From positions 1 to 64,000 of the forward strand of contig PGXU01000015.1 in NCBI GenBank assembly GCA_002839335.1: 64,000 nt of DNA, in the 5' to 3' direction. Of this stretch, positions 1,770-58,172 are shown piece after piece. The notes beneath the pieces were generated by a model. That model had not been told where the DNA came from. It ran no database searches and saw only the letters and a list, made by a program, of their open reading frames with translations. The translations under genes and the position numbers were made by a program. Each line of letters starts with the position of its first letter. Within the stretch, counting starts at the first letter, position 1. Source of the stretch: Spirochaetae bacterium HGW-Spirochaetae-4 (lineage in GTDB: Bacteria; Spirochaetota; Spirochaetia; Sphaerochaetales; Sphaerochaetaceae).

Positions 1770-1799
1770 AATCGTTGTACTCCTTTTGGTATCCCGTCT

Positions 1800-3317
1800 T
1801 CAACCGGAAATCTTGGAGAACAAAGGCTCCAGGACATGATACGCTTCGTCGAACAGGACACTTGCCTCCCTGTATCGCTTCACATGTGCGGGAATCGGAT
1901 ATACCGTATCGGTGAATTGGATAAACGATTCTATGCGATCGAATGAATCCAACAGTCCCACCCCGACCCCACCGATGACAGCCGCACCCATGCTCGTGGC
2001 TTCCTCCAAATACCGTGGTACGAGGATCGGCAAGTCGAAGACATCGGCAAGAATCTGTCTCCATTGCCTGCCTTTTGCCCCACCTCCGAGCACACGCATC
2101 TCTTCGATGGGAACCTGTTTCCTCATGGTTTCGAGGATCATCCCCAGATTCAAGGTGATTCCCTCCAGGACAGACCTGAACATATCTGCTTTGGTCCGTT
2201 CGAGCGTCAATCCGAGGAAGGCTCCCTTTGCATCGGGATTCCACCGGGGGCTCCGTTCTCCCAACAAGTAGGGAAGGAACAACACTCCATTCGCTCCCAC
2301 GGGGGATGCCTCGACGAGATCATCCAACAATCGGTAAGGACTGATTCCCGCTCGCACAGCCCGTTCGGTCTCGAGCCCCCCAAGTTGGTCCTTCAGCCAT
2401 GCGTATGAAGCTCCAGCTGTCTGCATGGTGCCGCACGGTTGTACATAACCGGGCACCGGATGCGCCCATGTGAAATTGCGCATCTCAGGGTCATCGAGAA
2501 TGGTGAGGCTGGTAGTGCTGATCCAACTGCTCGAACCGATGTAATTGTAGGTGATCCCAGGCTTGACCGAACCGATACCCACCGTCGCGCAACCGCCGTC
2601 ACCCGAGCCTGCCACGACCGGAGTTCCTTTTCGCAACCCTGTGGCTTCAGCCGCCTCGGAGGTAATCTCACCCACGACATCGATCGATGAAAGGAGTTCG
2701 GGAAACTTCGACCTATCGACCCGGGCGGCTTCGATGATCTGCTCCGACCATGCGAGCTGCTGCAAATCCAAGGCGTTGGTACCGCTCGCATCGTTGTATT
2801 CAGTGGCCATCCTTCCGGTGAGCTTGAAATTGATAAAATCCTTCGCATTGAGCATCTTAGCCGTCTGCGCATAGGTTTCCGGCTCGTTGTCCCGCAACCA
2901 CATGAGCTTCTCGATGGAATACGAGGGACTGGCCCGATGCCCGGTAATCTCGAATATCCTCTTCGCATCGATCCTCTCCACGAGTTTTTCGGTTTGCCTC
3001 ACTGCCCGTTGGTCGCTGTAGATGATATGGTTCTTGAGGGGTCGCCCTTTGGCATCGACAGGAAGGCACCCCATCATCTGTCCACTGAAGGTAACGACAC
3101 CGATTTCATCCGCCTTGTGTTCCTGTAGGATTGCGCGCGTAGAAGCGCACACCGCCTCCCACCACACGAGCGGGTCCTGCTCAGCCCATGTGACGTTCGA
3201 ATAGAACGTATCGTAGGGTACGGTCTTGCTCACCAACAGATTCCCGTCGGTATCGAACAATGTCGCCTTGTTTCCGCTCGTACCAAGATCATGTGCCAAC
3301 AATAGGTTTCCGGACAT
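1800..3317 (-). CDS. FGGY-family carbohydrate kinase (xylulokinase-like)
   Basis: Phosphorylates a ketose or polyol with ATP. The N-terminal phosphate-binding motif (D-L-G-T-S-G-N-K) and the second-domain motifs (G-S-G-D-G-G, and L-G-G-G-A-K-G-R-Q-W-R) are present, and at 505 residues it is full length. The ATG at 3317 is preferred because GGGAGG sits just upstream; an in-frame TTG five codons earlier lies before that site. It is 17 bases downstream of a zinc dehydrogenase gene, so the ketose made by the dehydrogenases is the likely substrate. FGGY subfamilies are hard to separate by eye, so xylulokinase is only the nearest label. Confidence 0.85.
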   Translation of the reverse strand: MSGNLLLAHDLGTSGNKATLFDTDGNLLVSKTVPYDTFYSNVTWAEQDPLVWWEAVCASTRAILQEHKADEIGVVTFSGQMMGCLPVDAKGRPLKNHIIYSDQRAVRQTEKLVERIDAKRIFEITGHRASPSYSIEKLMWLRDNEPETYAQTAKMLNAKDFINFKLTGRMATEYNDASGTNALDLQQLAWSEQIIEAARVDRSKFPELLSSIDVVGEITSEAAEATGLRKGTPVVAGSGDGGCATVGIGSVKPGITYNYIGSSSWISTTSLTILDDPEMRNFTWAHPVPGYVQPCGTMQTAGASYAWLKDQLGGLETERAVRAGISPYRLLDDLVEASPVGANGVLFLPYLLGERSPRWNPDAKGAFLGLTLERTKADMFRSVLEGITLNLGMILETMRKQVPIEEMRVLGGGAKGRQWRQILADVFDLPILVPRYLEEATSMGAAVIGGVGVGLLDSFDRIESFIQFTDTVYPIPAHVKRYREASVLFDEAYHVLEPLFSKISG

Positions 3318-3333
3318 AGTTCCTCCCGACAAC

Positions 3334-11006: not shown

Positions 11007-12227
11007 TCACCTGTAGAGTTCCTGTTCCTCGAAGAATTGGGATATACCGAAACAACCGGCACCGAGGGCACCGCGTTCGATTCCAAAGTCCGTATAGACG
11101 ATATCGAATTCCCGTTTCACCCTAGGGAGCGAAAGTTCTGAAAGCTTTTTCTTGATGTTTTCGATGAAATCTTGTCCCGCCTCGACATAAATACCTTGGA
11201 TTATTATCAGTTCGGGATCGCTGATCATGATCACATTGTTCAAGCCATTCGCAAAATAGGCGGCGATAAGATCCAACAGCTCGATTGCATAGGCATCACC
11301 CTGGTTCGCATGGATGAACAAGTCCCGGATGGAGACATCGGCAGGAGATTTGCCCTGGTAGATCGCAGATTCCCTATGGGTATCGTATCCTTGGCGCAAC
11401 AATCTGTTTATATGCTTGACGGATACTGCGGCTTCGAAGCACCCCTTTCCACCACAGATACAATCGGGACCATGGGGATCCACAATCACATGTCCAATTT
11501 CACCAGAGAGGTTGTTGAAACCATGCATGATCGTGCCTTGGACTATGATTCCAGCACCGACACCCTCTTCCATGGCATCGACAATCAGGAAGTCCTGCTT
11601 TCCGCGAGCCTTGCCCTTCATCCGTTCTGCACACGCCTGGAGCCTGTTGACTCCATCGAGGAAAATCGGGATATCCATATCGAACCGTTCCGCAAATTTC
11701 CGTATGAACGGGAAATTCTCCTGCCACTGCGGATAGTGGGGAGAGTAGATCGACTCTCCGGTATACGCATTGACAATACCCGGCAAGGCAATTACCACGT
11801 TGACCAACTTCTTGCCTTCCGCCCACTTGGAATTCCGGAAGCCTTTCGCTATGGAAACCAACTTGTCCACCATCTCAATATCCGAGACTGGTCGGTCCAC
11901 CACTTCATGGAACGATTGCACGTTCTGCAGTTTCAGGTCGGTCATACCAGCATAGATGAAATCAGGCCCGACATGCAGTGCAATCGCATAGCCATATTCC
12001 TGATTCAGCCGATATAGCTCGGGTCGTTTGCCACCTTCCAAGGTCGACTCGCCTTTTCCTGTCATAATGACCAGACCAAGATTCATATAGTGGTCGAGCA
12101 CCTTTTTCACAGTAGGGGTACTGACACGAACGGCCTTGGTTATTTGGGTTATGGGAACCTCTTCATGACTTCTTAAAAAATCGACGATGAATCGACGGTT
12201 GTTATGTTTTACGGATTGACGTTTCAT
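11007..12227 (-). CDS. ROK-family transcriptional regulator (XylR/NagC type)
   Basis: A 406-residue regulator: an N-terminal winged helix-turn-helix (about residues 10-60, with I-T-Q-I-T-K-A-V-R-V-S-T-P-T-V-K-K) joined to a ROK sugar-kinase-like domain. The ROK zinc motif is visible (C-I-C-G-G-K-G-C, with G-H-V ahead of it). Such proteins repress sugar operons until the sugar binds. It is the first gene of the transporter operon and so probably controls it and itself. No ribosome site precedes the ATG, and a candidate -10 box ends only six bases upstream, so the message may be leaderless. Confidence 0.88.
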   Translation of the reverse strand: MKRQSVKHNNRRFIVDFLRSHEEVPITQITKAVRVSTPTVKKVLDHYMNLGLVIMTGKGESTLEGGKRPELYRLNQEYGYAIALHVGPDFIYAGMTDLKLQNVQSFHEVVDRPVSDIEMVDKLVSIAKGFRNSKWAEGKKLVNVVIALPGIVNAYTGESIYSPHYPQWQENFPFIRKFAERFDMDIPIFLDGVNRLQACAERMKGKARGKQDFLIVDAMEEGVGAGIIVQGTIMHGFNNLSGEIGHVIVDPHGPDCICGGKGCFEAAVSVKHINRLLRQGYDTHRESAIYQGKSPADVSIRDLFIHANQGDAYAIELLDLIAAYFANGLNNVIMISDPELIIIQGIYVEAGQDFIENIKKKLSELSLPRVKREFDIVYTDFGIERGALGAGCFGISQFFEEQELYR

Positions 12228-12373: not shown

Positions 12374-13219
12374 CTATTTCATAGAATACATTACACCAAT
12401 TTTTGTGAGCTCCACCTTCTGCTCGAGTCCAAACCGGTCGATCTCTTCCTGGGCCATAGCTTCATCGATCGTGTTGAAAGCGAACATGCCGAAATGGGTC
12501 CCCAACAATGGTGTGGCCACTGACTGGGAGATAATCAGGGCTTCGTGGAAATCCATATTCCCGACAATTCCACGGGATTCCTTCACCGGATCCCTCCCAT
12601 TGACCGGAAGCACGAAAAGGTCGCAAGGTCTGGCAGATGCCCACACCGACCATCGTCTGAAGATAGTGGTATCTCCCGCAAATAGTATAGTCTTGTCTGC
12701 AAAGGAAAACCGGTATGACAATGCCCAGACTTTAGCAGCGTCGAAATTCGGTTGTGGATGTGCGGCTGGAAATGATTCGATCCGAATCGAACCGTTGAAA
12801 GCAAACGGCGTTTCAGGTGAAACCGAACGAATCCTATCGTTGGATATACCACAATTTCCCAAAGATTCGATGCACCCGGGAGGCACAGCGAACACCGCCT
12901 TTGCATTGCATCGGCCCAACTGCTCCATCAAACCAGGGTCCAGATGATCCTCGTGCCCATGGGTCACCACAACCAGATCTATATCGGGCAGCAGAATATC
13001 GGCAATAGGGGCAGGTATCATGCGGTCATGCGCAAAGGGAAGGTTTCCATGGTTATGTTCGAGATAATTCGAGAGGTAGGCATCGACCAAAACCAACGTT
13101 CCATCGACAGAAAAGAGAAAGCCCGACTGCCCCAGCCACATGAAATGCACTCCGCGTGGCTGGAAAGTTTCCCTTGAGTCCACAGGGACCTGTATTTTCC
13201 GTTTTTTCAATACGTCCAT
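12374..13219 (-). CDS. metallo-beta-lactamase-fold hydrolase (UlaG/COG2220-like)
   Basis: A 281-residue MBL-fold enzyme. The metal motif H-G-H-E-D-H is at residues 87-92, and a later L-P-V-N-G-R-D motif matches the UlaG-type group, whose best-known member is the L-ascorbate-6-phosphate lactonase. A sugar-lactone or phosphodiester hydrolase role is therefore likely, cytoplasmic, no signal peptide. The ATG at 13219 follows GGAGG by five bases; the frame is open 52 codons further back but overlaps the cupin gene's end. It is the last gene of the glycyl radical operon. A related protein lies at 55660-56562. Confidence 0.82.
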   Translation of the reverse strand: MDVLKKRKIQVPVDSRETFQPRGVHFMWLGQSGFLFSVDGTLVLVDAYLSNYLEHNHGNLPFAHDRMIPAPIADILLPDIDLVVVTHGHEDHLDPGLMEQLGRCNAKAVFAVPPGCIESLGNCGISNDRIRSVSPETPFAFNGSIRIESFPAAHPQPNFDAAKVWALSYRFSFADKTILFAGDTTIFRRWSVWASARPCDLFVLPVNGRDPVKESRGIVGNMDFHEALIISQSVATPLLGTHFGMFAFNTIDEAMAQEEIDRFGLEQKVELTKIGVMYSMK

Positions 13220-13260
13220 GGGAACCTCCAATTGTCCATGGTCACCAGGATGGGACCTGT

Positions 13261-13725
13261 TCAGAGGACTACAGGAACCGTCAACTCCCGAAAATGGAGA
13301 TCGTTCGCCCCGGTACCATCCTTGAACAATACCAAGGCATGGGCATCGTACTGGTTCACCGGAAAAGGAATCCAATGCCAGGTATCGGGCTTCATCACCA
13401 CTGCCTGTCCCTGTTTTATAAGAAACGCACGTATGCGCGAATGGTCTGCCAATTCATCGTCATGCGGAGAAGCGACCAGGACCATGTCGGCATCCAAAGC
13501 CACGATCACTTCACTGGATCCATGGTGCCGCTCCATCTTTTCCACTCGTCGTTCGCGTGAGCGGCAAGACAGGATTCCTGTACAACAAAATGGTGCCAGC
13601 TTGATCATTCCCGCGGTGTCATGCCAATCGAATTCATTCTCTGCCTTCACATTCTCGATAGTGTCCATGGTGAGTATCTCACCGAATTCGGAAAAGTTCC
13701 TTTGGTTCAATGGTTGGATCTTCAT
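13261..13725 (-). CDS. ureidoglycolate-lyase-family cupin (AllA-like)
   Basis: A 154-residue protein with the AllA pattern: N-F-S-E-F-G-E near the N-terminus, M-E-R-H-H-G-S-S in the middle, R-A-F-L-I-K-Q-G, and a final W-H-W-I-P-F. Characterised AllA releases urea from ureidoglycolate to give glyoxylate. Nothing else in the operon belongs to allantoin breakdown, so a different small hydroxy-acid or sugar-acid substrate is possible. It starts two bases after the stop of the glycyl radical enzyme gene, so the two are translationally close and probably work in sequence. Confidence 0.72.
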   Translation of the reverse strand: MKIQPLNQRNFSEFGEILTMDTIENVKAENEFDWHDTAGMIKLAPFCCTGILSCRSRERRVEKMERHHGSSEVIVALDADMVLVASPHDDELADHSRIRAFLIKQGQAVVMKPDTWHWIPFPVNQYDAHALVLFKDGTGANDLHFRELTVPVVL

Positions 13726-13726
13726 A

Positions 13727-16063
13727 TTACAACTCCGTCCTTTGGATCAGTTCGTCTTGGGCCTTTTTTCCCATCTGCACAAAGTATGCGGCATATCCGA
13801 CAACCCGTACACAAAGATTCTTATATTTTTCAGGATTTTTCTGTGCCTCGATCAATTCGGCCTTGCCCACGACATTCATCTGCGCTTGCATACCACCCTT
13901 ACGCAGATATACTTCGAGAAGCGAGGCTAATTTGGCCAGCCCTTCCGGGCCTTCAACGGTCGACGGATGCAACCTGAGGTTCAAGGGACCACCGGTAATC
14001 CGGTTGAACGGCACCCGGGTGACCGAATTCAGAAGCGCGGTCATACCAGACTTGTCCGACCCGATATATGGTGACTGGTTCTCTGAAATCGGTGCTCCCG
14101 CCAATCGACCGTCGGCACTCGCCGCCAGTGCCTCTCCCATGGTTGTGAAATCCCTATCCGTCGAAATCGCCGGCATATAGGTGTACAGACCTTCCCTCTT
14201 CCGATTCATGTCAACGACGGCATCACAAAAGGCATCAACGACAATCTTGGCATATTCGTCCACACTATCCAGGTCGTTCCCGAATTTGGGCAACTTGAGC
14301 AGGTAGGTGCGCATCTCGTCGTACCCAACGAAATTCGCCTTGATTGCCTGCCTCAGTTCGGCCAATGTATACCGCTTTTCCCTGAAGACAGCGGTATCTA
14401 TCGCTGCAAGTGAATCGACGGCGGTCGCGAGACCACTACCCTGCAGGGTTACCTTATGGTATTTGGTCCCTCCAATCAGCCAAGTCGTGGCCGATTCGAT
14501 CGTCCCCTTGAGGAAAAGGTCCTCGATCCGGATGCGACCTTTGTTCCATTGGGATTCCTTTTCGTAATCCTGTTCCATCACCCGCCGATACTGGTCGAGC
14601 AGAAACGACATCTGCTGCCGATACCGGGCAATGAAGGCTTCCATGGACGGACAAGGTTCTTCCGGATCAAACTTCTTGCCTGCATACGGACCGCTCATCA
14701 ATCCGATCTGGATCCTATCACGCAGGCTGAAGTTGAGATCGGCATTGCGGCTCGGATCACCGAAAGGACGGCCACCATTGAGAGCCAATTCATATGGCCA
14801 TACCAAGTTCATCCACAGTTGTCGCAACCCTCCCTCCAGTGCCGGAATGTTGGGATCGTTGCAACCGTAGAATCCATATGAATAGACATCCTGCTCTTCG
14901 ATACCGAACTCCTTGAGGGCAGGAATCATGGTCTCATCGTTGTATATGACGACTGTAGCATTCATCCGCATGGCATCGACAACCTCTTTCCAGAAATCGG
15001 AATCGATACCATCATGCCACCTGACCACAATGAACGGATTCTTGAGTCGAAGCAACTTTGCGGCTTGTACCAGGAGAAACGAGAGCCTGTTCACACCGGA
15101 AGTTCCATTCGCCAGCTTGCCCGCAACAACAAGGTAGTTGGGATCATCGTACGAGACTTCAAGATTCTTGATGACCGAATCGTTTTCTTGCGACATGTGG
15201 TCGGTAGGGAACATGATTTCGTTATTCTTGTTATAAAACTCGACGATCAGTTCCAACGCTTCCTGTTCGGTGAGGGTTCCCGCTTCGATATCCTTGGCAA
15301 ACAGGGGTAACAGATACTGGTCCATACGGGAAAAATCAAAGACTCCGCAACCGGCTGTCTTCTGGGAAATCAACACGACCATCCACATCAATTGCAAAGC
15401 ATCGCGCAATCCCCTGGCACTTCCTGTGGCGATATGGGAGCACACTTCTGAAATTGTCTCCAAGCGATTCCGCTCCTGGAGATTCCCAGTCATCCGAGCC
15501 GCTTCGGCCGCATGCTTCGCGTATCGGGCGATGAATGCCGAATGCGCTTCATAGGCGATTTGGGCTCCTTGCAGGAACTGCATCTTCTCGGGGTCATCGT
15601 TGAATTCTCCACTTGCGAGCAATTCCGATACCCGGTTCGCATACCAACCCAACCCCTTGGTGACTATCGTTTCCCAATCGTATGCAAGGTGTCCGAGGGA
15701 AAAGAACACCGGGTTCCGCCGTTTGACCCAACCTGGGGAAAAATAAAAGTTCACCTGCCGCTGACGTTCCTCTTCGGATACCTGGGGCCCCCACCATTTT
15801 ACGCTCAAGCTTTCGGCATACTCCCGTTGCTCCGCAGTTGGAATTATCTCAAGCACCGAGCCCACTATCCGTTCGCCTTCATTGACGATAACCGTCATGT
15901 TGGCAAGGATATGTCCGAGGATGTGGGCGAACCGAACCGCATACGGTTCTCCGGTGTATTTCTTGACTGCTTCCTCTTGCAAGACGATCCGCTCGTAGAA
16001 GGTTGCCTCATCGCTTTTATCAAACCATTTCCCGATTGATTTCTGAACATGTTTCGGAATCAT
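13727..16063 (-). CDS. glycyl radical enzyme (PFL/dehydratase superfamily), substrate unknown
   Basis: An oxygen-sensitive radical enzyme of 778 residues, normal for the dehydratase/lyase branch. The glycyl radical motif R-V-V-G-Y-A-A-Y-F lies near the C-terminus (Gly756). The active-site cysteine is Cys401 in F-Y-G-C-N-D-P, where most dehydratase-type members have C-V-E-P; the base after the cysteine is thus Asp403, not Glu. This makes transfer of a known activity (glycerol, propanediol, choline, hydroxyproline, isethionate) unsafe. GGAGG precedes the ATG by six bases. Its activase gene is immediately upstream, and transporters and an SDR precede that. It may split or dehydrate a sugar-derived diol or acid. 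Confidence 0.92.
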   Translation of the reverse strand: MIPKHVQKSIGKWFDKSDEATFYERIVLQEEAVKKYTGEPYAVRFAHILGHILANMTVIVNEGERIVGSVLEIIPTAEQREYAESLSVKWWGPQVSEEERQRQVNFYFSPGWVKRRNPVFFSLGHLAYDWETIVTKGLGWYANRVSELLASGEFNDDPEKMQFLQGAQIAYEAHSAFIARYAKHAAEAARMTGNLQERNRLETISEVCSHIATGSARGLRDALQLMWMVVLISQKTAGCGVFDFSRMDQYLLPLFAKDIEAGTLTEQEALELIVEFYNKNNEIMFPTDHMSQENDSVIKNLEVSYDDPNYLVVAGKLANGTSGVNRLSFLLVQAAKLLRLKNPFIVVRWHDGIDSDFWKEVVDAMRMNATVVIYNDETMIPALKEFGIEEQDVYSYGFYGCNDPNIPALEGGLRQLWMNLVWPYELALNGGRPFGDPSRNADLNFSLRDRIQIGLMSGPYAGKKFDPEEPCPSMEAFIARYRQQMSFLLDQYRRVMEQDYEKESQWNKGRIRIEDLFLKGTIESATTWLIGGTKYHKVTLQGSGLATAVDSLAAIDTAVFREKRYTLAELRQAIKANFVGYDEMRTYLLKLPKFGNDLDSVDEYAKIVVDAFCDAVVDMNRKREGLYTYMPAISTDRDFTTMGEALAASADGRLAGAPISENQSPYIGSDKSGMTALLNSVTRVPFNRITGGPLNLRLHPSTVEGPEGLAKLASLLEVYLRKGGMQAQMNVVGKAELIEAQKNPEKYKNLCVRVVGYAAYFVQMGKKAQDELIQRTEL

Positions 16064-16075
16064 AGTATACCTCCG

Positions 16076-16978
16076 CTAGTATCCGATTACAGCAATAGCG
16101 TTTGCCCTGAAGCGTTGCGCAATAGTTTCCATGGCATTTCTGTCCGGTGCACGGAACGCTTCCTGTTCTCCTATCGCCCCATGGTACGAAGTGGCCTTCT
16201 CAAGGCCCAGATCATGATAAGCCAACAACTCCACCCCCAGCAGGGAGTCCCAACCGGAAAGAAACGCTATCGCATCCGCTATCTCCCGGTCGGAATCGTT
16301 GATCCCGGCAATGAGGGGCATCCTCACCAGCACCTGCTTGTCCATAGTACGTAACCGCCCGATATTCTCCCAGATCAAATCGGGATATACACCTGTACAA
16401 TCGTAATGGGTCTCGCGATCCATACTCTTGATATCCAGGAGGACCAAATCTATTTCGGGCAATACGGGAGCAATGACGTCCCATTCGAGGTTGAAGGCGG
16501 TATCCAATGCAACCGCAATACCCTCGTTGTGCAATCTACCAGCGACAACACGGACAAATTCAGCTTGTAATAAAGGTTCTCCACCGGAGAATGTGACACC
16601 CCCCCGAGAGTTCCGGTAATACTCGGCATCACGCATAAGTAGATCGAACAAGTCGGAATCACGAATATCTGTACCGGTTATCGCCAACGCATCCTGCATG
16701 CACACCGGGACGCAAAGTCCACAAGCTGTACACAAATGGAAATCGAACGTTCTCTGCCCCTGGTACATCGTGGTGGCTCCAGTAGGACACACACGTGCAC
16801 ATGCTCCACAATGCACACAAGCACTTTCCGAGTAATGCAATAATTTCGCATAGGGAATGGTCTCGGGATTATGGCACCACCGGCATCGCAGGTTGCATCC
16901 CTTGAGGAATACCGTGGTACGGATACCAGGGCCATCCTTTGTGCTGAACCGCTGTATGTGTGAATATCGACCCATCAT
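16076..16978 (-). CDS. glycyl radical enzyme activating protein (radical SAM)
   Basis: Installs the glycyl radical on the enzyme encoded next to it, using S-adenosylmethionine. The radical SAM cluster is Cys28-x3-Cys32-x2-Cys35 (C-N-L-R-C-R-W-C). Two further ferredoxin-like cluster motifs follow, Cys54/57/60/64 and Cys83/86/89/93, as in activases of the dehydratase type and unlike the short pyruvate formate-lyase activase. The F-S-G-G-E-P-L-L motif is near residue 150. Length is 300. It lies 12 bases before the enzyme gene and directly after the MFS gene. Confidence 0.95.
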   Translation of the reverse strand: MMGRYSHIQRFSTKDGPGIRTTVFLKGCNLRCRWCHNPETIPYAKLLHYSESACVHCGACARVCPTGATTMYQGQRTFDFHLCTACGLCVPVCMQDALAITGTDIRDSDLFDLLMRDAEYYRNSRGGVTFSGGEPLLQAEFVRVVAGRLHNEGIAVALDTAFNLEWDVIAPVLPEIDLVLLDIKSMDRETHYDCTGVYPDLIWENIGRLRTMDKQVLVRMPLIAGINDSDREIADAIAFLSGWDSLLGVELLAYHDLGLEKATSYHGAIGEQEAFRAPDRNAMETIAQRFRANAIAVIGY

Positions 16979-16979
16979 G

Positions 16980-18149
16980 TCAGACCACCTTCCTCTTCAC
17001 CCGATAGATCAATGTCAGACAAAGGAAACATGTGGCAAAGATTGCCAACAATCCGAATCCGAACCGTAAGGAGAACGCGCGGGAAACCATGCCGATTATC
17101 CAAGGTCCGAACAATCCGCCCAACCCTGCGATCGAGAAGAAGATTCCCGTCGTTCTCAATCCCACGGTTCCCAACTCGTTCACCAATAAGGCAACCGTCG
17201 TTGGAAACAACGGTGCCATAAGGAATCCTGACAAGGGTAGCAGTATGTGGGCGCGTGGAAACAGTGCCGAGACCGTGGTAATGACCAGTAGTGCGACCAC
17301 ATGGATGACGATGGTCCTCAACAGTCCCACCTTATCGACGTACCAACTGCCGAGGAATCTTCCGATGGTAAGCATGATGAAGAACAACGAGAGGTACGAG
17401 GTTGCCACCCGATCGGACAAGCCGACAGCTTGACGGGCATAGGCGACCAACCATCCGGCGATCCCTGTCTCCAAGGTCATATACCAAAAGAGGAATCCTC
17501 CCAACAAGACGACTTGCAGGTTCAAGACCAGCCGGTCATCCTTTTCATATGGTATTCGCGTCGATATGTTGCTGGAGGAAACTCCTTTGGAGACGGCGAA
17601 TGTAGCGGCTACCAACAGGATTGCGGCAACCCTATAGATCATATGCCAATCGGAATACAGGTTCAGCACCATCGCAGCAAACAACGGAGAGACGATCGAT
17701 CCGAATCCATGGAAGAATGCGAGTCGGTTGAGCTCCCGTCCCACCTGTTCGGGTCGGGCTGCCAATCGTACCGTAAGATTTGCCGACACATCGATCAGGC
17801 CACACCCGCCACCAGTCAGGAAGGTAGCGAAAAGGATTACCGAAACATGATTCGCAAAACCAAATAGGATGACTCCCAGAGCAGTAGTGGCTACCGCAAT
17901 CACCAATAGGCGTGCAACCGCGAACCGTTTCAAAAGGGATACCGAGGAAAGTGTGCCGGCGAAGAATCCGAAATAGGTGATGCCAAGTATCGAACCACCC
18001 AAGGCATAGTCCACTCCGAGTGTGCCCACCATTTCAGCAACCGCAGACCCCTTGAGCACATCGGAAAAACCCATGAAAAAAAACGCCAACGAGGCGACAG
18101 CCAGCATTACCGCAGAAGATGAAATCTGTTTCCCCGTTTTGATCCCCAC
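16980..18149 (-). CDS. MFS transporter (FucP-like sugar permease)
   Basis: A 12-helix-type major facilitator with about 389 residues from the proposed start. Long hydrophobic segments alternate with basic loops, and R-T-R-F-like charged turns are absent, as in FucP-type sugar symporters. The GTG at 18149 is preferred: GAAGG lies six bases upstream and the gene then begins 17 bases after the SDR stop. A GTG at 18215 and an ATG at 18197 are in frame but overlap the SDR gene and have no ribosome site. Its presence beside a full ABC importer means the operon has two uptake or export routes. Confidence 0.82.
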   Translation of the reverse strand: MGIKTGKQISSSAVMLAVASLAFFFMGFSDVLKGSAVAEMVGTLGVDYALGGSILGITYFGFFAGTLSSVSLLKRFAVARLLVIAVATTALGVILFGFANHVSVILFATFLTGGGCGLIDVSANLTVRLAARPEQVGRELNRLAFFHGFGSIVSPLFAAMVLNLYSDWHMIYRVAAILLVAATFAVSKGVSSSNISTRIPYEKDDRLVLNLQVVLLGGFLFWYMTLETGIAGWLVAYARQAVGLSDRVATSYLSLFFIMLTIGRFLGSWYVDKVGLLRTIVIHVVALLVITTVSALFPRAHILLPLSGFLMAPLFPTTVALLVNELGTVGLRTTGIFFSIAGLGGLFGPWIIGMVSRAFSLRFGFGLLAIFATCFLCLTLIYRVKRKVV

Positions 18150-18165
18150 ACCATCCACCTTCTTC

Positions 18166-18945
18166 TCAGATCCCTTTCCCAGCCATGTACCCGCCATCGA
18201 CCAGCAGGAATTCACCCGATATCATCGATGCGGCACTGGAAAGCAGGAACATCACCACTGGAGAGACATCGTCACATTCCAGGAACCGTCCGAGCGGTAT
18301 GAAACTCTCCATCCTCTCGCGTTTCACCGGATCGGAATCCCAAGCCGCCTTCCCCATTTCTGTAAGCACGACTGTCGGACCGACTGCATTGATTCGGATC
18401 CCGCAGCGCCCCAATTCCATCGCGGCGACCTTCACATATCCCAACAGACCCTCTTTGGAGGCGCAATAGGCACTGTGCCGGTCGAATGCGGTCACACTGG
18501 AAAGACTCGCGATATCCACGATACTACCGCATCCCTGTTCCTTCATATATGGGACAACCGCATTGGTCACCAGCATTGGCGCTATGAGATTCACATCCAT
18601 AACATGCTTGAGAGCGGTTGCCGAGAGGGAACCCATCGGCTCCAATATATTGACACCTGCACAATTGACCAACCCGTCGATCCTGCCGAACAATTCGGCA
18701 AAATACTTGACCATGGGACCGATTGATTCCACTTGGGCGAGATCCACAGTGTAGGTGTCACACCGCCAGCCATTGGAAACGGCTTCTTTGTGCAACATTC
18801 GTAGGGCATCCGTATCTCGGCCGGTTATACCCACCCGGGCACCCCTGGCCATCAACTGGAAAGCGATATCCTTTCCTATGCCTTTGGATGAACCCGTGAC
18901 AATCATACAGGTTTCGGAGAAATCGAATGAAACGGTTCCATTCAT
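18166..18945 (-). CDS. short-chain dehydrogenase/reductase (SDR)
   Basis: A classical SDR of 259 residues with T-G-S-S-K-G-I-G at 17-24, N-C-A-G near 94-97, and catalytic Ser147 or 149, Tyr160 and Lys164. Its ATG overlaps the stop codon of the upstream permease by four bases, so it is translationally coupled to the transporter. Likely oxidises or reduces the imported sugar before the glycyl radical step. Confidence 0.88.
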   Translation of the reverse strand: MNGTVSFDFSETCMIVTGSSKGIGKDIAFQLMARGARVGITGRDTDALRMLHKEAVSNGWRCDTYTVDLAQVESIGPMVKYFAELFGRIDGLVNCAGVNILEPMGSLSATALKHVMDVNLIAPMLVTNAVVPYMKEQGCGSIVDIASLSSVTAFDRHSAYCASKEGLLGYVKVAAMELGRCGIRINAVGPTVVLTEMGKAAWDSDPVKRERMESFIPLGRFLECDDVSPVVMFLLSSAASMISGEFLLVDGGYMAGKGI

Positions 18946-19928
18946 CGCTTTTTCCTCCGGGATTTGGTTCCATACACAAAAATCTTTTGCAATAGGATGA
19001 ATCCCAGCAACATGCCTCCGGTAAACAGCTTGATCCAGAAGACACTGAATTGTCCGTTGAACGCTATGATGGATTTGATCAACCCCTGGATGAGCGTGCC
19101 CAGCAGCGTACCCAGAATTGTCCCGTAGCCGCCGGTCATCAAGGTTCCGCCGATAACCGCCGACGCGATCGCCTCCATTTCCAAACCCATGGCGGCCAAG
19201 CCATACCCGGACAACGTGTAGAAGGTATAGATGAAACCTGCGACTGCCGAGCAGAAACCACTGAAGGTATAGACGGCGATCTTTGTCTGGGTGACCGGAA
19301 GCCCCATGAGTATGGCCGACTGCTCGTTACCCCCCACTGCGAAAACATTTCTTCCGAAGCGGGTTCGCCGGGAAATGAACCAACCGATCAGGATCATAGC
19401 CAACAGGGCCATTGCGGGCATGCTGAGTTTGCCATTCCCGATCCTAATTCCAATCGACGAGGCATTGGTATAGAAGGGATGCGTGATCGGCACCGACCCC
19501 AAACTCAACACATACCCCAACCCACGGGCAAAGAACATACCCGCCAAGGTAACAATAAACGGAGGTGTCTTGAAGTACTGGATCATGCCACCCATCAGAA
19601 ACCCGAGTGTCGTACCAAAAAGCAACGCTATGGTAATGACAAATACGTTGTTCATACCGGCTTTGGTCAACACGGCGACGATCATGGCAGTGGTGGAGAT
19701 CACCGCCCCGACCGACAAGTCGATTCCACCCGAGATGATGACGAAGGTCATGCCGACCGCAGTGATACCCAATACTGCGTTGTCCGTCAACAAATTGAGA
19801 AAAACACGTGGAGTCATGAAATTGCGGTAACTGAAACCACCAAAGGCATACAACAGGAGGAATACAATGAATGTAGCCACCAAAGGCATGTCACGACGGG
19901 AAATCTGGAACAATCGTTTGCGGCTCAT
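18942..19928 (-). CDS. ABC transporter permease, YjfF-like
   Basis: A CUT2-family permease of 328 residues. The order of motifs matches E. coli YjfF from the galactofuranose importer: N-L-L-T-D-N-A near residue 46, V-G-M-T-F-V-I-I-S-G-G-I-D-L-S-V-G, then P-P-F-I-V-T-L-A-G-M-F-F-A-R-G and S-V-P-I-T-H-P. It overlaps both neighbours by four bases. With the preceding permease it forms the pore of a YtfQRT/YjfF-type importer, which suggests a furanose-form sugar as substrate; the exact sugar is not known. Confidence 0.87.
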   Translation of the reverse strand: MSRKRLFQISRRDMPLVATFIVFLLLYAFGGFSYRNFMTPRVFLNLLTDNAVLGITAVGMTFVIISGGIDLSVGAVISTTAMIVAVLTKAGMNNVFVITIALLFGTTLGFLMGGMIQYFKTPPFIVTLAGMFFARGLGYVLSLGSVPITHPFYTNASSIGIRIGNGKLSMPAMALLAMILIGWFISRRTRFGRNVFAVGGNEQSAILMGLPVTQTKIAVYTFSGFCSAVAGFIYTFYTLSGYGLAAMGLEMEAIASAVIGGTLMTGGYGTILGTLLGTLIQGLIKSIIAFNGQFSVFWIKLFTGGMLLGFILLQKIFVYGTKSRRKKR

Positions 19929-20974
19929 ATTGCAGATCCCCCCTTGACCATCATCTTGCCTTGTCGTTTACCCATCACTTCCCGCATCTTGTTCGATTGG
20001 ATGATAAGCACGACCACCACTACGATTGCCTTTACCAGGAGCGTGTATTCTGTCGGAATACCCTTGGTCAGGATCGTTGTGGTCAAAGTCTGTATGATGA
20101 GTACTCCGATCACCGTTCCGCCGACATTGTATTTGCCGCCCTCCATCGGTGTCCCACCGATAACGACTGCAAGAATTGCGTCGAGCTCCATATACAATCC
20201 CATGAATCCGGCATCGGCTCCCGTAATGTCGCTTGTCATGACCAGGCCGGACAACCCGGCGGCAAAACCACTGAAGATATAGACGAACAGCAGTACGAGA
20301 CGGGTATTCACACCTGAGAAGTTGCTGGCACTCCTATTGCCACCTACGGCTTGGATATACAGTCCCATAGGAGTCAGCCGGGTGATGGCGGTCCCCAACA
20401 CGATGACCCCCAAGGCGAGCAGGAACGGGAAAGGAAGCCCGAACAGGTATCCCCTACCCACAAACTCGAATCCGGCATGCCTGAAATTGAGTACCTTGCC
20501 CCCGGTCAACAGTTGGGCGAGTCCTCTTCCAGCGGTCATGAGGATGAGCGTTGCGATAAACGGCTGCAATCCGATAAACGATACCATGACGCCGTTGAAT
20601 GCTCCCAATAGGATAGAGGCGACCAACGGAATCAGAATGATCGAGAGCATCGGCGCATAATACTGGGAACCAGCCGAGGTGAGATACTGGGTATTTCCTC
20701 CCCAGACCACCAACGATGCGATCGACCCCGATATGGCGAGCACCGATCCCACGGATATGTCGATCCCACCCGTCGCGATCACATAGGTCATCGCAACTGC
20801 CATGATCAACGTGGGAGCACTCCGTCGCAAGATGTCGATCAATGAACCGAACAAGTGCCCATCCTTGATTGTGATGGCGAAGAACGAATCCGTGAACATC
20901 AGATTGAACAACAGTATCAAGCCCAGGGCGAACAACGGCCATGCTATTCGCGGTATTTGTCGTCCTTTCATCAT
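19925..20974 (-). CDS. ABC transporter permease, YtfT-like
   Basis: A CUT2-family permease of 349 residues with the signature A-T-G-G-I-D-I-S-V-G and the C-terminal V-I-G-G-T-P-M-E-G-G motif. It is the first of two permease genes, in the place of ytfT in the E. coli galactofuranose operon, and its start overlaps the ATPase stop by four bases. Confidence 0.87.
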   Translation of the reverse strand: MMKGRQIPRIAWPLFALGLILLFNLMFTDSFFAITIKDGHLFGSLIDILRRSAPTLIMAVAMTYVIATGGIDISVGSVLAISGSIASLVVWGGNTQYLTSAGSQYYAPMLSIILIPLVASILLGAFNGVMVSFIGLQPFIATLILMTAGRGLAQLLTGGKVLNFRHAGFEFVGRGYLFGLPFPFLLALGVIVLGTAITRLTPMGLYIQAVGGNRSASNFSGVNTRLVLLFVYIFSGFAAGLSGLVMTSDITGADAGFMGLYMELDAILAVVIGGTPMEGGKYNVGGTVIGVLIIQTLTTTILTKGIPTEYTLLVKAIVVVVVLIIQSNKMREVMGKRQGKMMVKGGSAI

Positions 20975-22488
20975 ACTTTCCTATCCCCTTTTGCCGCAAT
21001 CCTGACCATGATTTCCTGCTCCGAGATTTCCTCTCCCAGCAATTCTCCGACGATATTTCGGTTTTGCAGGATATATACACGGTTTGAACAGCGCACCACT
21101 TCTTCGATTTCCGATGATACGAAGACGATCCCCATACCTTGCTTGCTCAATTCGACCAGCAACCGCTGTATTTCCATCTTTGCACCGACATCGATACCAC
21201 GTGTCGGTTCGTCGACAATCAATAGTTCCGGATTGGTGGCAAGCCAACGGGCCAAGATCACCTTCTGCTGGTTACCCCCCGAGAGGGTCTCGATCGGTTG
21301 GTTCACACCGGAGGTCTTGATGGAAAGCATACCGATGTACTTCTCCGCCAATTCGGTCTGTTTGCGGATACTGATATTGTGCAGCCACCCCTTCTTCACC
21401 TGTAGTGCGAGAACGATATTTTCCCGTACCGACAAACCGGAAATGATTCCTTCCTGCTTGCGGTCCTCCGGACTCAGGGCCAGATGATGGGCGATTGCCT
21501 TCCGTGGGGAATTGAGGTTGACCCGTTTTCCCTTGATATGGAGTTCTCCCCCTTCCGGTTTTTGCGTGCCGAACAACAGGTTGGTGATTTCTGTCCTACC
21601 CGAACCGAGCAATCCTGCCAACCCGACAATATCTCCCTTGCGTACCTTCAGATCGAAAGGATTCATGTAATTGGTCTTTTCCATTCCCTTCACATCGATC
21701 AGGTTGGCATCGTCACCGGTTTCCACATGGTTCGAGATACTGTCGAAATTCTTCAGATCATCGAGGGATTTTCCCATCAACTTCGACACCAGGTCCAGCT
21801 TGGTCATTGACGGGGTCGCATACTCGCCGACATATTTGCCGTTGCGCAGTACGGTGATCCGATCAGTGATCTCAAATACCTGATCAAGAAAGTGGGTCAC
21901 AAAAATTATCGCATGGCCTTGCTCTTTCAACCGACGCATCTGCTTGAAGAGCTTCTCGACCTCATCGGCATTGAGGCTCGATGTAGGTTCATCCAGAATC
22001 AACAGTTTCGAGTCCAGTTCCAAAGCCCTGGCAATTGCAACCATCTGCTGGATGGCGATCGAATAATTCCCCAGCAATTCGGTGACATCGATATCGATAT
22101 CGAATTTCTCAAGGATCCCTGCGGCCCGCCGATTCATTGTTTTCCAATCGATTCCAACGGTACCGGTGGGTTGTCGGCCGATCGCGAGATTCTCGGCGAC
22201 CGACAGATTGGTCAACAAGTTGACCTCTTGGTACACCGTACTGATTCCCAATGCTTCGGCGTGCAAAGGAGAGGTCGGATGTATTTCCTGACCGTCGAGC
22301 ACAATCGTACCGGCGTCCTTCTGGTATACGCCAGTGATGACTTTGATCAGAGTCGACTTCCCAGCCCCGTTCTCTCCCATCAAACCGTGGATTTCGCCCC
22401 TTTCGAGGGCGAAATCCACATCTGCGAGAGCGGTGACACCTGGGAAAACCTTATAGACGTTGTGAACCTCTAGGAGTTTTCCACCCAT
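20971..22488 (-). CDS. ABC transporter tandem ATPase, YtfR-like
   Basis: Energises the YtfQRT/YjfF-type importer. Of 505 residues, the first half has Walker A G-E-N-G-A-G-K-S-T and Walker B L-I-L-D-E-P-T; the second has L-L-G-S-G-R-T-E (no lysine, as usual), L-S-G-G-N-Q-Q-K and an intact V-D-E-P-T-R-G. It starts 17 bases after the binding-protein stop, and unlike some other binding-protein genes here there is no hairpin in that gap. Confidence 0.93.
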   Translation of the reverse strand: MGGKLLEVHNVYKVFPGVTALADVDFALERGEIHGLMGENGAGKSTLIKVITGVYQKDAGTIVLDGQEIHPTSPLHAEALGISTVYQEVNLLTNLSVAENLAIGRQPTGTVGIDWKTMNRRAAGILEKFDIDIDVTELLGNYSIAIQQMVAIARALELDSKLLILDEPTSSLNADEVEKLFKQMRRLKEQGHAIIFVTHFLDQVFEITDRITVLRNGKYVGEYATPSMTKLDLVSKLMGKSLDDLKNFDSISNHVETGDDANLIDVKGMEKTNYMNPFDLKVRKGDIVGLAGLLGSGRTEITNLLFGTQKPEGGELHIKGKRVNLNSPRKAIAHHLALSPEDRKQEGIISGLSVRENIVLALQVKKGWLHNISIRKQTELAEKYIGMLSIKTSGVNQPIETLSGGNQQKVILARWLATNPELLIVDEPTRGIDVGAKMEIQRLLVELSKQGMGIVFVSSEIEEVVRCSNRVYILQNRNIVGELLGEEISEQEIMVRIAAKGDRKV

Positions 22489-22505: not shown

Positions 22506-23471
22506 CTAGAACTTTCTTCCACCGATGAGGGCTGCCGCATCTGCCATGCGGAAAATGCCGTCTTCAGATTTTACCCACTTGGGTACAGACTCGCCGCGCC
22601 ATGCTGCCTCGAGGGCATCGAAACCTTGGGGTCCGAGCAACGGGGTGCATTCTACAAGTGCGTTCAAATCCCCATCGACCATGGCTTGGAATCCGTCCCT
22701 GACACCATCGATCGAGTAGACGAGAATGTCTTTGCCCGGATCCATTCCGTATTCCTTGATAGCCTGGATGGCACCGATCGCCATGTCGTCATTATGTGCA
22801 TACACGACATCGATGTTCTTTCCTTCAGCCTTCAGGAACGCTTCCATGACTTCCTTACCCTTGGTCCTGTTGAAATCGCCAGTCTGGGAAAGGATAATCT
22901 TCATTCCGGGGTTCGCATTCACGACTTTCTCGAAACCAGCTTTCCGTTCGATCGCCGGATCGGCACCGGGAGTTCCCTGTAGTTCGACGATATTGGCTTT
23001 TCCCTTGGTGTCTGCCAAAACTAGCTTTCCAACCTCTTCGCCTTCCCACACGAAATCGGAACCGATGAAGGTCACGAACAGGTCTTCGCTTTCATCGACT
23101 TTCCGGTCGAGCAGGACGACTGGGATTCCGGCTTCCTTCGCTTCACGAAGCACAGGACCGAAACCAGTGGTAACCTGCGGAGCGAGCAGAATGCCATCCA
23201 CGCCCTGGGCGATGAAAGAGCGGACTGCAGCGATCTGGTTGGCTTGGCTGGACTGCGCGTCGTTGTACTGGAGTACGTAGCCACGGTTGGCGGCCTCTTC
23301 CTTCACCGACTCGGTCTCAGCCCATCTCCATGCCTGTTGGCTGTCACATTGCGAGAACCCGATAACCTTCGGGGCATCGGCTGCCGCTTCGGTTTGACCA
23401 GCGCCAAAGATGCTTCCTGCGGAAAGCACCAGCAGGGCAACCATCATAAGAACCATGATGTTCCTTTTCAT
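22506..23471 (-). CDS. periplasmic furanose-binding protein, YtfQ-like
   Basis: The receptor of the importer, 321 residues. The signal peptide ends in A-G-Q-T-E-A-A without a lipobox. Several stretches closely follow E. coli YtfQ (galactofuranose receptor): V-I-G-F-S-Q near the N-terminus, S-F-I-A-Q-G-V-D, T-K-G-K-E-V-M-E-A-F, and V-Y-A-H-N-D-D-M-A-I-G-A-I-Q-A-I. It is the first gene of an 11-kb operon that ends with the glycyl radical enzyme, the cupin and the hydrolase. A related lipoprotein sensor is encoded on the other strand. Confidence 0.92.
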   Translation of the reverse strand: MKRNIMVLMMVALLVLSAGSIFGAGQTEAAADAPKVIGFSQCDSQQAWRWAETESVKEEAANRGYVLQYNDAQSSQANQIAAVRSFIAQGVDGILLAPQVTTGFGPVLREAKEAGIPVVLLDRKVDESEDLFVTFIGSDFVWEGEEVGKLVLADTKGKANIVELQGTPGADPAIERKAGFEKVVNANPGMKIILSQTGDFNRTKGKEVMEAFLKAEGKNIDVVYAHNDDMAIGAIQAIKEYGMDPGKDILVYSIDGVRDGFQAMVDGDLNALVECTPLLGPQGFDALEAAWRGESVPKWVKSEDGIFRMADAAALIGGRKF

Positions 23472-23629: not shown

Positions 23630-24616
23630 ATGAAGAAATATATTACACTCGCACTCCTTGTCGTTATTCTCTTTTCCAGTTGCTCCCCAGTGAAGGACGA
23701 CCAGTCTCCACGCACATCGGAGACTGCGAAGGTGCAGGTTTCGGATACCCGGTTGATCGTGGGATTCTCCCAGATGAACCATATAAATCCGTGGCGCGTA
23801 GCTGAAACCAATGATATGCGACAAGTAGCCGAGGAACGGGAAATCAACTTGTTGGTCGCGGATGCCGACAGCTCGATCGAGAAACAGACCCAGGATATCA
23901 GGGACTTCATCGCTCAAGGTGCCCAATATATCGTCTGTACTCCATTCACGTATGATGGATATCAGGAAGTTGTGGATATCTGCAAAGAGGCTGGAGTTCC
24001 CCTGATCATGCTGGACAGGGAAATCGCCGGAACCGGTGGAGTCGATTTCCTCACGTTCATCGGGTCCGATTTCTATCAGGAGGGAGTTCGTGCCGCCAAG
24101 TGGCTAGCCGAAGTCATGGGAAACAATGCCAAGATTGTCGAACTCCATGGGAACGAGGGTTCCTCCTGTGGAATCGATCGTGCCAACGGGTTCCATGATG
24201 GTATCCGAACGATCGAGGGTATGGAAGTTGTGGCCTTCGGCTATGCGGACTTTGAACGGATAAAAGGCCAGGATGTGATGGAAGATATCATCCTCTCCTT
24301 TGGGAAGGAGTTCAATGCCGTCTACGCGCATAACGATGAAATGGCAATCGGCGCGATACAGGCACTCAAGGCAGCCAATATCAGGCCGAATACCGACGTG
24401 ACGATCATAAGCATAGACGGTAGCAAGGATGCATTGAAATCCATAATCGCCGGAGAACTTGGCGCAACGATCGAATGTACTCCCCGGCTCGCCAAGACGG
24501 TGTTCGACACGATCGCGGACCATCTGCTCGGTAAAGAGATACCGCCAAAGATCATAATCGAAGACCGTCTCTTCGATTCTTCAAATGCGATAGAGCTGTT
24601 CGATGAAGGTTTTTAA
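23630..24616 (+). CDS. YtfQ-like sugar-binding lipoprotein (sensor component)
   Basis: A 328-residue periplasmic-binding-protein homologue with a lipoprotein signal (L-F-S-S-C, Cys18). It resembles the transport receptor across the gap: V-G-F-S-Q-M, D-F-I-A-Q-G-A-Q, F-I-G-S-D-F, and Y-A-H-N-D-E-M-A-I-G-A-I-Q-A-L. Its gene overlaps the histidine kinase gene by 14 bases, and there is no transporter gene beside it on this strand. The best reading is a membrane-anchored receptor that presents the bound sugar to the kinase, as in three-component sugar sensing systems. It could instead feed the transporter as a second receptor. Confidence 0.82.
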   Translation: MKKYITLALLVVILFSSCSPVKDDQSPRTSETAKVQVSDTRLIVGFSQMNHINPWRVAETNDMRQVAEEREINLLVADADSSIEKQTQDIRDFIAQGAQYIVCTPFTYDGYQEVVDICKEAGVPLIMLDREIAGTGGVDFLTFIGSDFYQEGVRAAKWLAEVMGNNAKIVELHGNEGSSCGIDRANGFHDGIRTIEGMEVVAFGYADFERIKGQDVMEDIILSFGKEFNAVYAHNDEMAIGAIQALKAANIRPNTDVTIISIDGSKDALKSIIAGELGATIECTPRLAKTVFDTIADHLLGKEIPPKIIIEDRLFDSSNAIELFDEGF

Positions 24617-26294
24617 ATGGTTTCCGCCTAAGAAGAATTCCTTGGGCAACAGGATATTCGTTCTCACCATGACCATCACCTTGAGTATGGTGGCGTTGCT
24701 TGGATTCACGTTCAGCTACCTTTCCACCAACATTATCAAGGACCACCTGCAGACAGTCCTGGTCGCAATTGTCGACAGCAATGCCATAGAGATCGAAAAT
24801 CTGTTGGACAATGCATTGAAAAATGCCTTGAGGATAACGAACGATCCGAAGATCCAAGCGGTCTTACGGAATCCCCGTCCTGTTTCCATTGCGGAAGCAT
24901 ATTCCCTGGAGTTGGAGATGGACAACCAGCTATCGTTTGTCCAGAACTATGTCGACCACCTGTTCGGCTTTTATATCATCGGAGCCAACGGGATGCAATT
25001 CAAGTCGAACTTCTCCTCGCCCATTTACCAGGATTGGAAGGATTTCGATTGGTACCAACGCATTATTGCAAGTGACAGTCCGGTCTGGTTCGACCCGCAT
25101 GAGGGTTCATTTACCGTCAACACTATCGGTCAACCGTTGGTAACCATGGGATTGCGGATCATGGACAAATCCACGGGAAACATCCTCGGGGCTTTGTTGA
25201 CCGATATCGAGGTTTCAACCTTATCATCGATTGTCCGGAAAGGGATGGGTGAGACCGGGCATTTCATACTGACAAGTTCGGACAAGTCGATCATCTCCCA
25301 ATCGGCGAATGAAACCAACAATTCGGAATACAGCTTCTCCTACACGAAGGATATTTCCTTGGCGGGATGGGAACTCACCGGCTATCTGCATCCATCCCTC
25401 ATCGAAAACTCCGTGTTGTCCATGATCACCCCCATACTGATCCTCATTGCGATCATCGCTATCATCGTATTGTTCGCATCCAGCTCCATATCGTACCGGA
25501 TAACAGCGCAACTGCGAGAATTGGCGTCTCTGATGGAGGTCGTGCAGTCGGGAAACTTCCGTGTCACCATGGATACGTCAGGCGATGACGAAGTCGCCCT
25601 ATTGGGATCGACCTTCAACGTCATGGTCTCGCAGATCAACAATCTCCTGCGGGATTTGCATGATGAGCATGAAAAACTCCGCATTGCGGAAATGAAGACA
25701 CTCGAAGCCCAGATCAATCCGCATTTCCTGTACAACACACTGGATTCGATCATTTGGCTTGCACGAAAGGGAAAGATGGATGATGTGACCCGGCTGGTGT
25801 ATTCCCTGTCCAAACTATTGCGTATCGGCCTCAATAGGGGCAGGACCATGGTCACCATCGAAGAGGAGATCGAACATATCACCAACTATCTGATAATACA
25901 AGAAGTCCGTTATGCCGATGACTTCATCTATGAAATCATCATTCCCGACTCGATACTCAAGAACAAGACACTCAAGCTGATCCTGCAACCGCTGGTTGAA
26001 AACGCAATCATCCATGGTGTGCAGCAATCGGATACATCGGAAAAAATCACCATTGTAGGAGAAGAATCCGGTACGGATATACTCATACGTGTCACGAATT
26101 CAGGTCCACAGGTTCCGCAAGACCGCCTTGATGAGATAAACCTGTTGCTCGAAGAGGGAAGCGAATCGGATTTTGGACTGGGGTTGCGGAATGTGAATGA
26201 GCGGATTAAACTTTATTTCGGCCAACAGTATGGGTTGCACTTCTCGTCGAATTCAGAAGGGACAACCGTGATTGTCCATATACCAAGGATTTAA
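24603..26294 (+). CDS. sensor histidine kinase (YesM/LytS type)
   Basis: A 563-residue membrane kinase. One membrane segment is at about residues 18-40, an extracytoplasmic Cache-like domain follows to about 265, and a second segment is at about 272-297. Then come a HAMP region (about 298-350), the phosphoacceptor helix Q-I-N-P-H-F-L-Y-N-T-L with His374, and an ATPase domain with V-E-N-A-I-I-H-G and G-L-G-L-R-N-V. It probably senses the lipoprotein from the overlapping upstream gene. The response regulator gene begins three bases after its stop. Confidence 0.93.
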   Translation: MKVFKWFPPKKNSLGNRIFVLTMTITLSMVALLGFTFSYLSTNIIKDHLQTVLVAIVDSNAIEIENLLDNALKNALRITNDPKIQAVLRNPRPVSIAEAYSLELEMDNQLSFVQNYVDHLFGFYIIGANGMQFKSNFSSPIYQDWKDFDWYQRIIASDSPVWFDPHEGSFTVNTIGQPLVTMGLRIMDKSTGNILGALLTDIEVSTLSSIVRKGMGETGHFILTSSDKSIISQSANETNNSEYSFSYTKDISLAGWELTGYLHPSLIENSVLSMITPILILIAIIAIIVLFASSSISYRITAQLRELASLMEVVQSGNFRVTMDTSGDDEVALLGSTFNVMVSQINNLLRDLHDEHEKLRIAEMKTLEAQINPHFLYNTLDSIIWLARKGKMDDVTRLVYSLSKLLRIGLNRGRTMVTIEEEIEHITNYLIIQEVRYADDFIYEIIIPDSILKNKTLKLILQPLVENAIIHGVQQSDTSEKITIVGEESGTDILIRVTNSGPQVPQDRLDEINLLLEEGSESDFGLGLRNVNERIKLYFGQQYGLHFSSNSEGTTVIVHIPRI

Positions 26295-26297
26295 AGT

Positions 26298-58161: not shown

Positions 58162-58172
58162 GGACTCCTCCG

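Follow-up and report, generated by a model that had tools for sequence, protein, structure and literature searches.

Introduction

Eliminases of the glycyl radical enzyme (GRE) superfamily share a CXE motif in the Cys loop, and its glutamate binds the substrate hydroxyl; the E470Q variant of the isethionate enzyme IslA has no detectable activity (PMC8473560). Given this role, some replacement would be expected where the glutamate is lost. Substrate contact in IslA, CutC, and HypD is made at a shared strand-1 site, and IslA binds its charged substrate through arginines, the Arg189/Gln193/Arg678 set being specific to that enzyme (PMC8473560). Among solved GREs, all those with a displayed Cys loop have C-x-E (glycerol and propanediol dehydratases, CutC, YbiW, PflD, IseG, and HypD, and likewise hydroxyphenylacetate decarboxylase, methyl-hydroxyproline dehydratases, and an Archaeoglobus enzyme), a comparison that leaves aside benzylsuccinate and methylalkylsuccinate synthases, HpsG, and HplG. 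Judging by structure titles, YbiW and PflD have been solved with 1,5-anhydrohexitol 6-phosphates, and in E. coli pflD is located near fsaB and gldA. Here we describe a spirochaetal GRE, encoded in a sugar operon, with Cys-Asn-Asp (C-N-D) in this loop, and the family to which it belongs.

Results

The C-N-D gene and its operon

The window, a stretch of 64,000 nucleotides, corresponds to positions 1 to 64,000 of contig PGXU01000015.1 of Spirochaetae bacterium HGW-Spirochaetae-4 (GCA_002839335.1), a nearly complete 3.6 Mb draft genome in 143 contigs that encodes its own pyruvate formate-lyase (PFL) on another contig. The GRE gene is intact, with its ATG at 16063, its stop at 13727, and a clear ribosome-binding site, GCGGAGGTATACTATG. 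A sequence-only reading of this DNA had located Cys401-Asn402-Asp403 and Gly756 correctly, and only the strand had to be corrected to minus (Table 1). The three codons (14863-14855) lie within DVYSYGFYGCNDPNIPALEGGLRQLW, the protein reading G-C401-N402-D403-P, and Gly756 lies within CVRVVGYAAYF. Both Pfam profiles, PFL-like (PF02901, 352.5 bits) and Gly_radical (PF01228, 85.2 bits), were passed, and the protein thus combines the barrel domain and the C-terminal glycyl motif of the PFL-like superfamily. Cys401 is invariant and aligns with Cys433 of glycerol dehydratase, which identifies it as the catalytic cysteine; it is single and preceded by Gly, so that the Cys-Cys pair of PFL is absent.

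The GRE gene belongs to an operon of ten successive minus-strand genes, with gaps of at most 38 bp and several overlaps, in the order binding protein, ATPase, two permeases, SDR, MFS, activase, GRE, PF04115 protein, and metallo-beta-lactamase-fold hydrolase. The activase gene precedes that of the GRE by 12 bp; as an adjoining gene that passes TIGR02494 and is a conserved neighbor, it codes for the cognate radical-SAM activase. The PF04115 family elsewhere acts on a hemiaminal. Galactofuranose is not claimed as the substrate because the binding protein scores under the YtfQ cut-off (Table 1). The ROK-family regulator probably controls the surrounding sugar genes. Divergent from the operon, on the plus strand (23630-27905), are a second YtfQ-like binding protein and two further genes, which may together sense the sugar handled by the operon; homologs of the first two of these genes are likewise divergent in loci L033, L034, and L049.

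Table 1. Coordinates of the GRE, its residues of interest, and neighboring genes in the window (L numbers denote related loci in other genomes).
Feature	Position	Strand	Basis
Sugar-binding protein, nearest YtfQ (galactofuranose), below cut-off	22506..23471	minus	NF041827 365 vs 510 bits; PDB 5ocp, 2vk2
Sugar ABC ATPase	20971..22488	minus	ORF; homologous neighbors in C-N-D loci
Sugar ABC permease 2	19925..20974	minus	Homologous neighbors
Sugar ABC permease 1	18942..19928	minus	Homologous neighbors in L034, L035, L037, L039, L040
SDR dehydrogenase; nearest solved: L-xylulose reductase, sorbitol dehydrogenase	18166..18945	minus	Conserved in L033, L034, L049
MFS transporter	16980..18215	minus	Pfam MFS_1; homolog in same place in L033, L034, L035, L049
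GRE activase, radical SAM with extra ferredoxin clusters	16076..16978	minus	TIGR02494 298.5 vs cut-off 174.35 bits
GRE, C-N-D subfamily, 778 aa	13727..16063	minus	ORF, Pfam PFL-like and Gly_radical, family alignment, tree
His125 codon, aligned with His164 of glycerol dehydratase	15689..15691	minus	Kept in C-N-D, C-N-W, C-N-N members
Cys401-Asn402-Asp403 codons (Cys loop)	14855..14863	minus	Invariant in C-N-D family
Arg414 codon, invariant in C-N-D family	14822..14824	minus	Alignment; with Gln415 at glycerol dehydratase Asp447 position, register +/- one residue
Glycyl radical motif R753-V-V-G756-Y	13793..13807	minus	Pfam PF01228
Ureidoglycolate-lyase-like cupin (PF04115), 1 bp past GRE	13261..13725	minus	Homologs beside GRE in L034, L035, L043, L036, L096
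Metallo-beta-lactamase-fold hydrolase, last gene of operon; distant to NAPE-PLD, UPF0173, UlaG	12374..13222	minus	
ROK-family regulator	11007..12227	minus	
FGGY sugar kinase, outside GRE operon	1800..3332	minus	About 50% identical homologs beside C-N-D GREs in L044, L094, L097

Comparison with characterized GREs

None of the NCBIfam equivalog cut-offs (994-1150 bits) for HypD, CutC, HpfG, HpsG, HPAD, indoleacetate decarboxylase, PFL, and PRK09983 was reached, scores being 94-348 bits (HpfG 348/1000, HpsG 288/1000, HypD 295/1100, and CutC 260/1050), nor was that of TIGR01774, the PFL2/glycerol dehydratase subfamily (377.2 vs 678.2 bits). By structural alignment, identity to solved GREs is about 20-28%. 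The AlphaFold model (pLDDT 78.6, pTM 0.84) has the GRE fold, with pLDDT below 50 in the Cys loop (397-413). The predicted fold resembles those of C–O/C–N lyases: Z values are 29-31 to CutC, dehydratases, HypD, and HplG over 665-702 residues (rmsd about 4), with 31.3 for CutC, 30.9 for propanediol dehydratase and HplG, 30.3 for glycerol dehydratase, and 30.2 for YbiW with anhydroglucitol-6-phosphate; the first two dozen rows of this ranking are nearly tied, so it selects no nearest lyase and absence from it carries no meaning. PFL, which shares with the window enzyme the superfamily, an activase, and the glycyl motif, differs in its Cys-Cys-Val-Ser loop and gives a model Z of only 20.2, against about 30 for lyases.

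Glycerol dehydratase of Clostridium butyricum (PDB 1r8w) and propanediol dehydratase gave the best phmmer score among solved GREs (278 bits). The former has in common with the window enzyme the fold, the Cys and Gly loops, and His164/His125, but its C-V-E is replaced by C-N-D (E435 by D403), His281/Ser282 by Gly240/Val241, and Asp447 by Arg414 or Gln415, depending on where a one-residue gap is placed; no claim made here depends on that choice. We read His125 from the alignment as probably the common strand-1 substrate-contact site. Moreover, the Asn that follows the GGxxY motif in most GREs is H536 in C-N-D proteins, and R512, D515, and G691 are, like H536, changes at near-invariant columns. 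Taken together, the pocket changes suggest a larger, possibly anionic substrate. YbiW and PflD resemble the window enzyme in having a GRE and activase in a sugar locus and, for some C-N-D members, an Fe-ADH and an aldolase nearby as at pflD; however, their loops read C-I-E and C-V-E, they are about 25-26% identical by structural alignment, trees group the window GRE with neither, and pflD has PTS genes alongside where the window has ABC import. Hence the window enzyme is not placed among anhydrohexitol-phosphate lyases. The isethionate and sulfopropanediol GREs (IslA/IseG, HpsG, and HpfG) are lyases that bind a negatively charged substrate, but the arginine set of IslA is its own and the HpfG and HpsG cut-offs are far off.

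A C-N-D subfamily in four phyla

A relative with 96% protein identity in another spirochaete MAG (HGW-Spirochaetae-2) and one with 65% from another spirochaete family both keep G-C-N-D-P. By a scan of species genomes and whole-genome searches, the latter adding L094 (genome G204) and L096 (G913), C-N-D GREs were found in 18 genomes of four phyla, all of them with G-C-N-D-P; the exact duplicate L040/L041 was counted once, and fragments L043 and L049, from one MAG, as one. Hosts are Spirochaetota, Clostridia (including Lachnospiraceae, Epulonipiscium, and Christensenella), one Synergistaceae, and one Anaerolineae. This conservation rules out chance or sequencing error as the origin of the motif, which is genuine as the sequence-only reading had it. 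EGGLRQ(L/V)W, C239, R414, and H536 show no variation among members whose sequences reach these positions. Against the family profile, sufficiently complete C-N-D genes exceed 1000 bits, and the next GREs of the same genomes reach at most 240. We define the C-N-D subfamily, a name coined here, by G-C-N-D-P plus EGGLRQ(L/V)W and a score above 1000 bits; the window enzyme falls within it with 1265 bits, its own sequence being one row of that alignment. The subfamily is rare, occurring in 3 of 397 Lachnospiraceae genomes (the search center included), 2 of 393 Spirochaetota, 1 of 53 in the Synergistaceae group, and 2 of 58 in the order of L036. A search of viral contigs for relatives found none, and we found nothing relevant in the open literature tying GREs to galactonate, galactosylglycerol, floridoside, anhydrosugars, or inositol, although a study elsewhere is possible. 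C-N-D proteins are thus a real, coherent, and apparently uncharacterized GRE subfamily with an altered Cys loop.

Loss of the CXE glutamate

Glu fills the same alignment column in all 21 lyase-type GREs compared from outside the C-N-x clade, and in a second sample it occupies position +2 in 31 of 31 non-PFL GREs; the 12 family members in the tree set all read C-N-D. In the tree these 12 form one clade (support 100/100). Its sister group (100/98) consists of three C-N-W proteins, all of them from Clostridia of the rumen and gut; a C-N-N protein branches off outside both (96/95), on a long branch that makes its placement unsure. When long branches and most PFLs were removed, C-N-D and C-N-W remained together on one side of a branch (100/99). 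The uncharacterized C-N-W GREs (L050:9914-12106, L053:9971-12127, L054, and L055:5926-7795) share Cys-Asn with C-N-D but have Trp at +2, and therefore no carboxylate at the catalytic Glu position, are about 30% identical to it, and carry other residues at R414, G240, and V241. From the C-N-W sister and the less certain C-N-N group, the loss of Glu and the gain of Asn at +1 probably preceded Asp. The shared novelty is C-N with Glu lost; Asp is specific to the C-N-D branch.

These results sustain part of what had been proposed from the sequence. The C-x-E rule for lyases was obeyed by all 52 lyase-type GREs sampled outside the C-N-x clade; among GREs of known function, C-x-D occurs neither in the displayed Cys loops nor in IslA (PMC8473560); and the predicted separate subfamily is seen in the 100/100 clade and the wide score gap, lying in the trees outside any characterized C-x-E cluster. 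The idea that replacement of Glu by Asp itself signals a different substrate geometry is not supported: Asp is one pocket change among several, and Glu was probably lost earlier.

Gene context of C-N-D GREs

An activase is present at all C-N-D loci with enough flanking sequence, and a sugar ABC importer in nine loci/genomes (L033, L034, L035, L037, L039, L040/L041, L048, L049, and L097, the last near the GRE of G913). L039 contains a zinc dehydrogenase, KDPGal aldolase, activase, GRE, PTE-type lactonase, 2-keto-3-deoxygalactonate kinase, and galactonate dehydratase (629 bits vs cut-off 311); galactonate dehydratase is also found at L038 and L040. L037 and L040 have a relative of N-acylglucosamine/cellobiose 2-epimerase and a GH2 protein. 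L044 encodes a zinc dehydrogenase, an FGGY kinase, two Fe-ADHs, and an aldolase related to the DeoC-like protein of the window, and L094 a glycerol-dehydrogenase-type Fe-ADH (398 bits, cut-off 336), GRE, cupin-type GPI, lactonase, KDPG aldolase, 2-hydroxyacid dehydrogenase, zinc dehydrogenase, and divergent FGGY kinase. Fe-ADH accompanies PF04115 at L036 and L096. The C-N-W locus L055 has a zinc dehydrogenase, FGGY kinase, SMP-30 lactonase, and DeoC/LacD aldolase. Inositol, raised as a substrate by zinc dehydrogenases near IolM, was rejected on their scores (229-231 vs cut-off 450). The C-N-D loci point to carbohydrate catabolism with several possible substrates, and their comparison suggests that only the GRE–activase pair is constant in this sugar route.

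Elsewhere in the window, the FGGY kinase, barely over the xylulokinase cut-off (381.0 vs 380.25), may take part in the GRE pathway, judging by its homologs (Table 1). An SMP-30-type lactonase (771-1769) adjoins it, both genes (771-3332, minus) lying downstream of a second ribose-type ABC operon. At 57232-58757 (minus) a 2-hydroxyacid dehydrogenase adjoins a cupin-type glucose-6-phosphate isomerase; since homologs of the pair (36-38% and 55-58%) occur near C-N-D GREs in L094 and L096, it may belong to the same pathway. A search of the source genome for glycerol dehydrogenase (GldA) and an Fsa-type aldolase gave none over family cut-off, which leaves a YbiW/PflD-style route incomplete at that threshold, and such a route was rejected for this organism.

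Discussion

We give slightly better than even chances to the proposal that C-N-D GREs are C–O lyases whose substrate is derived from a sugar and carries no phosphate, Asp403 serving as carboxylate/base. The reaction would be a dehydration, or loss of an O-linked group, through C–O cleavage. From operon and family, the ABC importer would take the substrate in, and the adjacent activase would set a radical on Gly756. By analogy with the superfamily, the radical would pass to Cys401, whose thiyl would abstract hydrogen from a hydroxyl-bearing carbon. Asp403 may hold or deprotonate the hydroxyl as the CXE Glu does, with Arg414/Gln415 and His125 orienting the remainder of the molecule; with its roomier wall at G240/V241, and with Arg414, the pocket would suit a bigger substrate that may be anionic, for example a sugar acid. 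The neighboring C–O bond would then break to yield a carbonyl product, and products would proceed to an SDR or zinc dehydrogenase, lactonase, FGGY kinase, and aldolase, as neighbors in related loci suggest. The C–O lyase reading draws on both GRE domains with the adjacent activase, the model superposing best, all tied, on C–O/C–N lyases, the retained His125, the sugar-catabolic context in several lineages, and the Fe-ADH and aldolase beside the GRE in L044 and L094, which resemble E. coli pflD with fsaB and gldA. Against it, Trp in the C-N-W sister means that not all relatives need a carboxylate, neighboring enzymes vary by lineage so that one substrate may not account for all loci, the source genome lacks GldA and Fsa over cut-off, and confidence in the modeled Cys loop is low.

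In the main rival view, unlikely though worth weighing, the C-N-x clade converts a sugar or sugar acid by radical chemistry other than 1,2-elimination (such as C–C cleavage, isomerization, or epimerization), Asn402 being the shared key residue and Asp403 merely tuning the C-N-D branch. The single C-N-D plus C-N-W clade, perhaps with C-N-N outside, would agree with this, as would a +2 residue that is D, W, or N and hence no fixed base, and the changes at R512, D515, H536, and G691; yet fold, His125, and sugar-catabolic neighbors are those of lyases, and the kinase, lactonase, and DeoC/LacD aldolase of L055 would fit a deoxysugar product. Within the C–O lyase reading, a narrower version that we find quite improbable is that the radical opens the ring of an unphosphorylated anhydro-sugar or frees an aldose from a glycosyl-polyol, and that the resulting deoxyketose or hydroxyacetone is then reduced by Fe-ADH, in a YbiW/PflD-like manner where ABC import and FGGY kinase replace the PTS. 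The glycerol-dehydrogenase-type Fe-ADH of L036, L044, L094, and L096, the FGGY kinase of L044, L094, and L097, and the precedents of pflD beside fsaB/gldA and of the YbiW and PflD anhydrohexitol phosphate structures speak for it; nevertheless, these genes are not in all lineages and are missing from the source genome at family cut-off, and the sequence is no closer to YbiW/PflD than to other lyases.

Asp is a conservative replacement within the same fold, and harmless drift in a lyase of known type, acting on the substrate of a characterized GRE, could account for it; this is very improbable, as all 18 genomes, from four phyla, keep Asp, identity to solved GREs is low, no equivalog cut-off was reached, and the D447 and H281/S282 positions differ too. 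That loss of a catalytic residue marks a degenerate GRE unable to form the radical is hardly credible, with Cys401, Gly756, and the radical motif kept and an activase at every locus with enough flank.

More broadly, it is possible but doubtful that the C-N-x clade (C-N-D, C-N-W, and possibly C-N-N) has given up the CXE Glu and converts unphosphorylated sugars or sugar acids by a type of radical reaction not yet known among GREs. If true, the clade would represent a route by which bacteria living in guts, rumens, algae-eating fish, and other anoxic habitats use sugars anaerobically. In either case, a natural, widespread family without this Glu makes it testable whether Asp, or no carboxylate (C-N-W), serves radical elimination, and it opens the question of the sugar chemistry of these anaerobes; intact C-N-D operons include a binding protein that could reveal the substrate.

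Additional observations on C-N-D loci

L040 and L041 (JAQVCW010000004.1) constitute an exact 22,310-base repeat with the whole GRE locus, the copies about 37 kb apart, which may be a recent duplication or an assembly error. The split gene of L048 is due to a run of N, not to a frameshift. At this locus, in genome G070, a single YtfQ-type sugar ABC operon has a GRE–activase pair on either side, one of them C-N-D and the second of another kind. G070 has 16 matches to the GRE profile. The G-C-N-N GRE (L083, G070:C148:1579-3795) is encoded in a Christensenella genome that also holds a C-N-D GRE.
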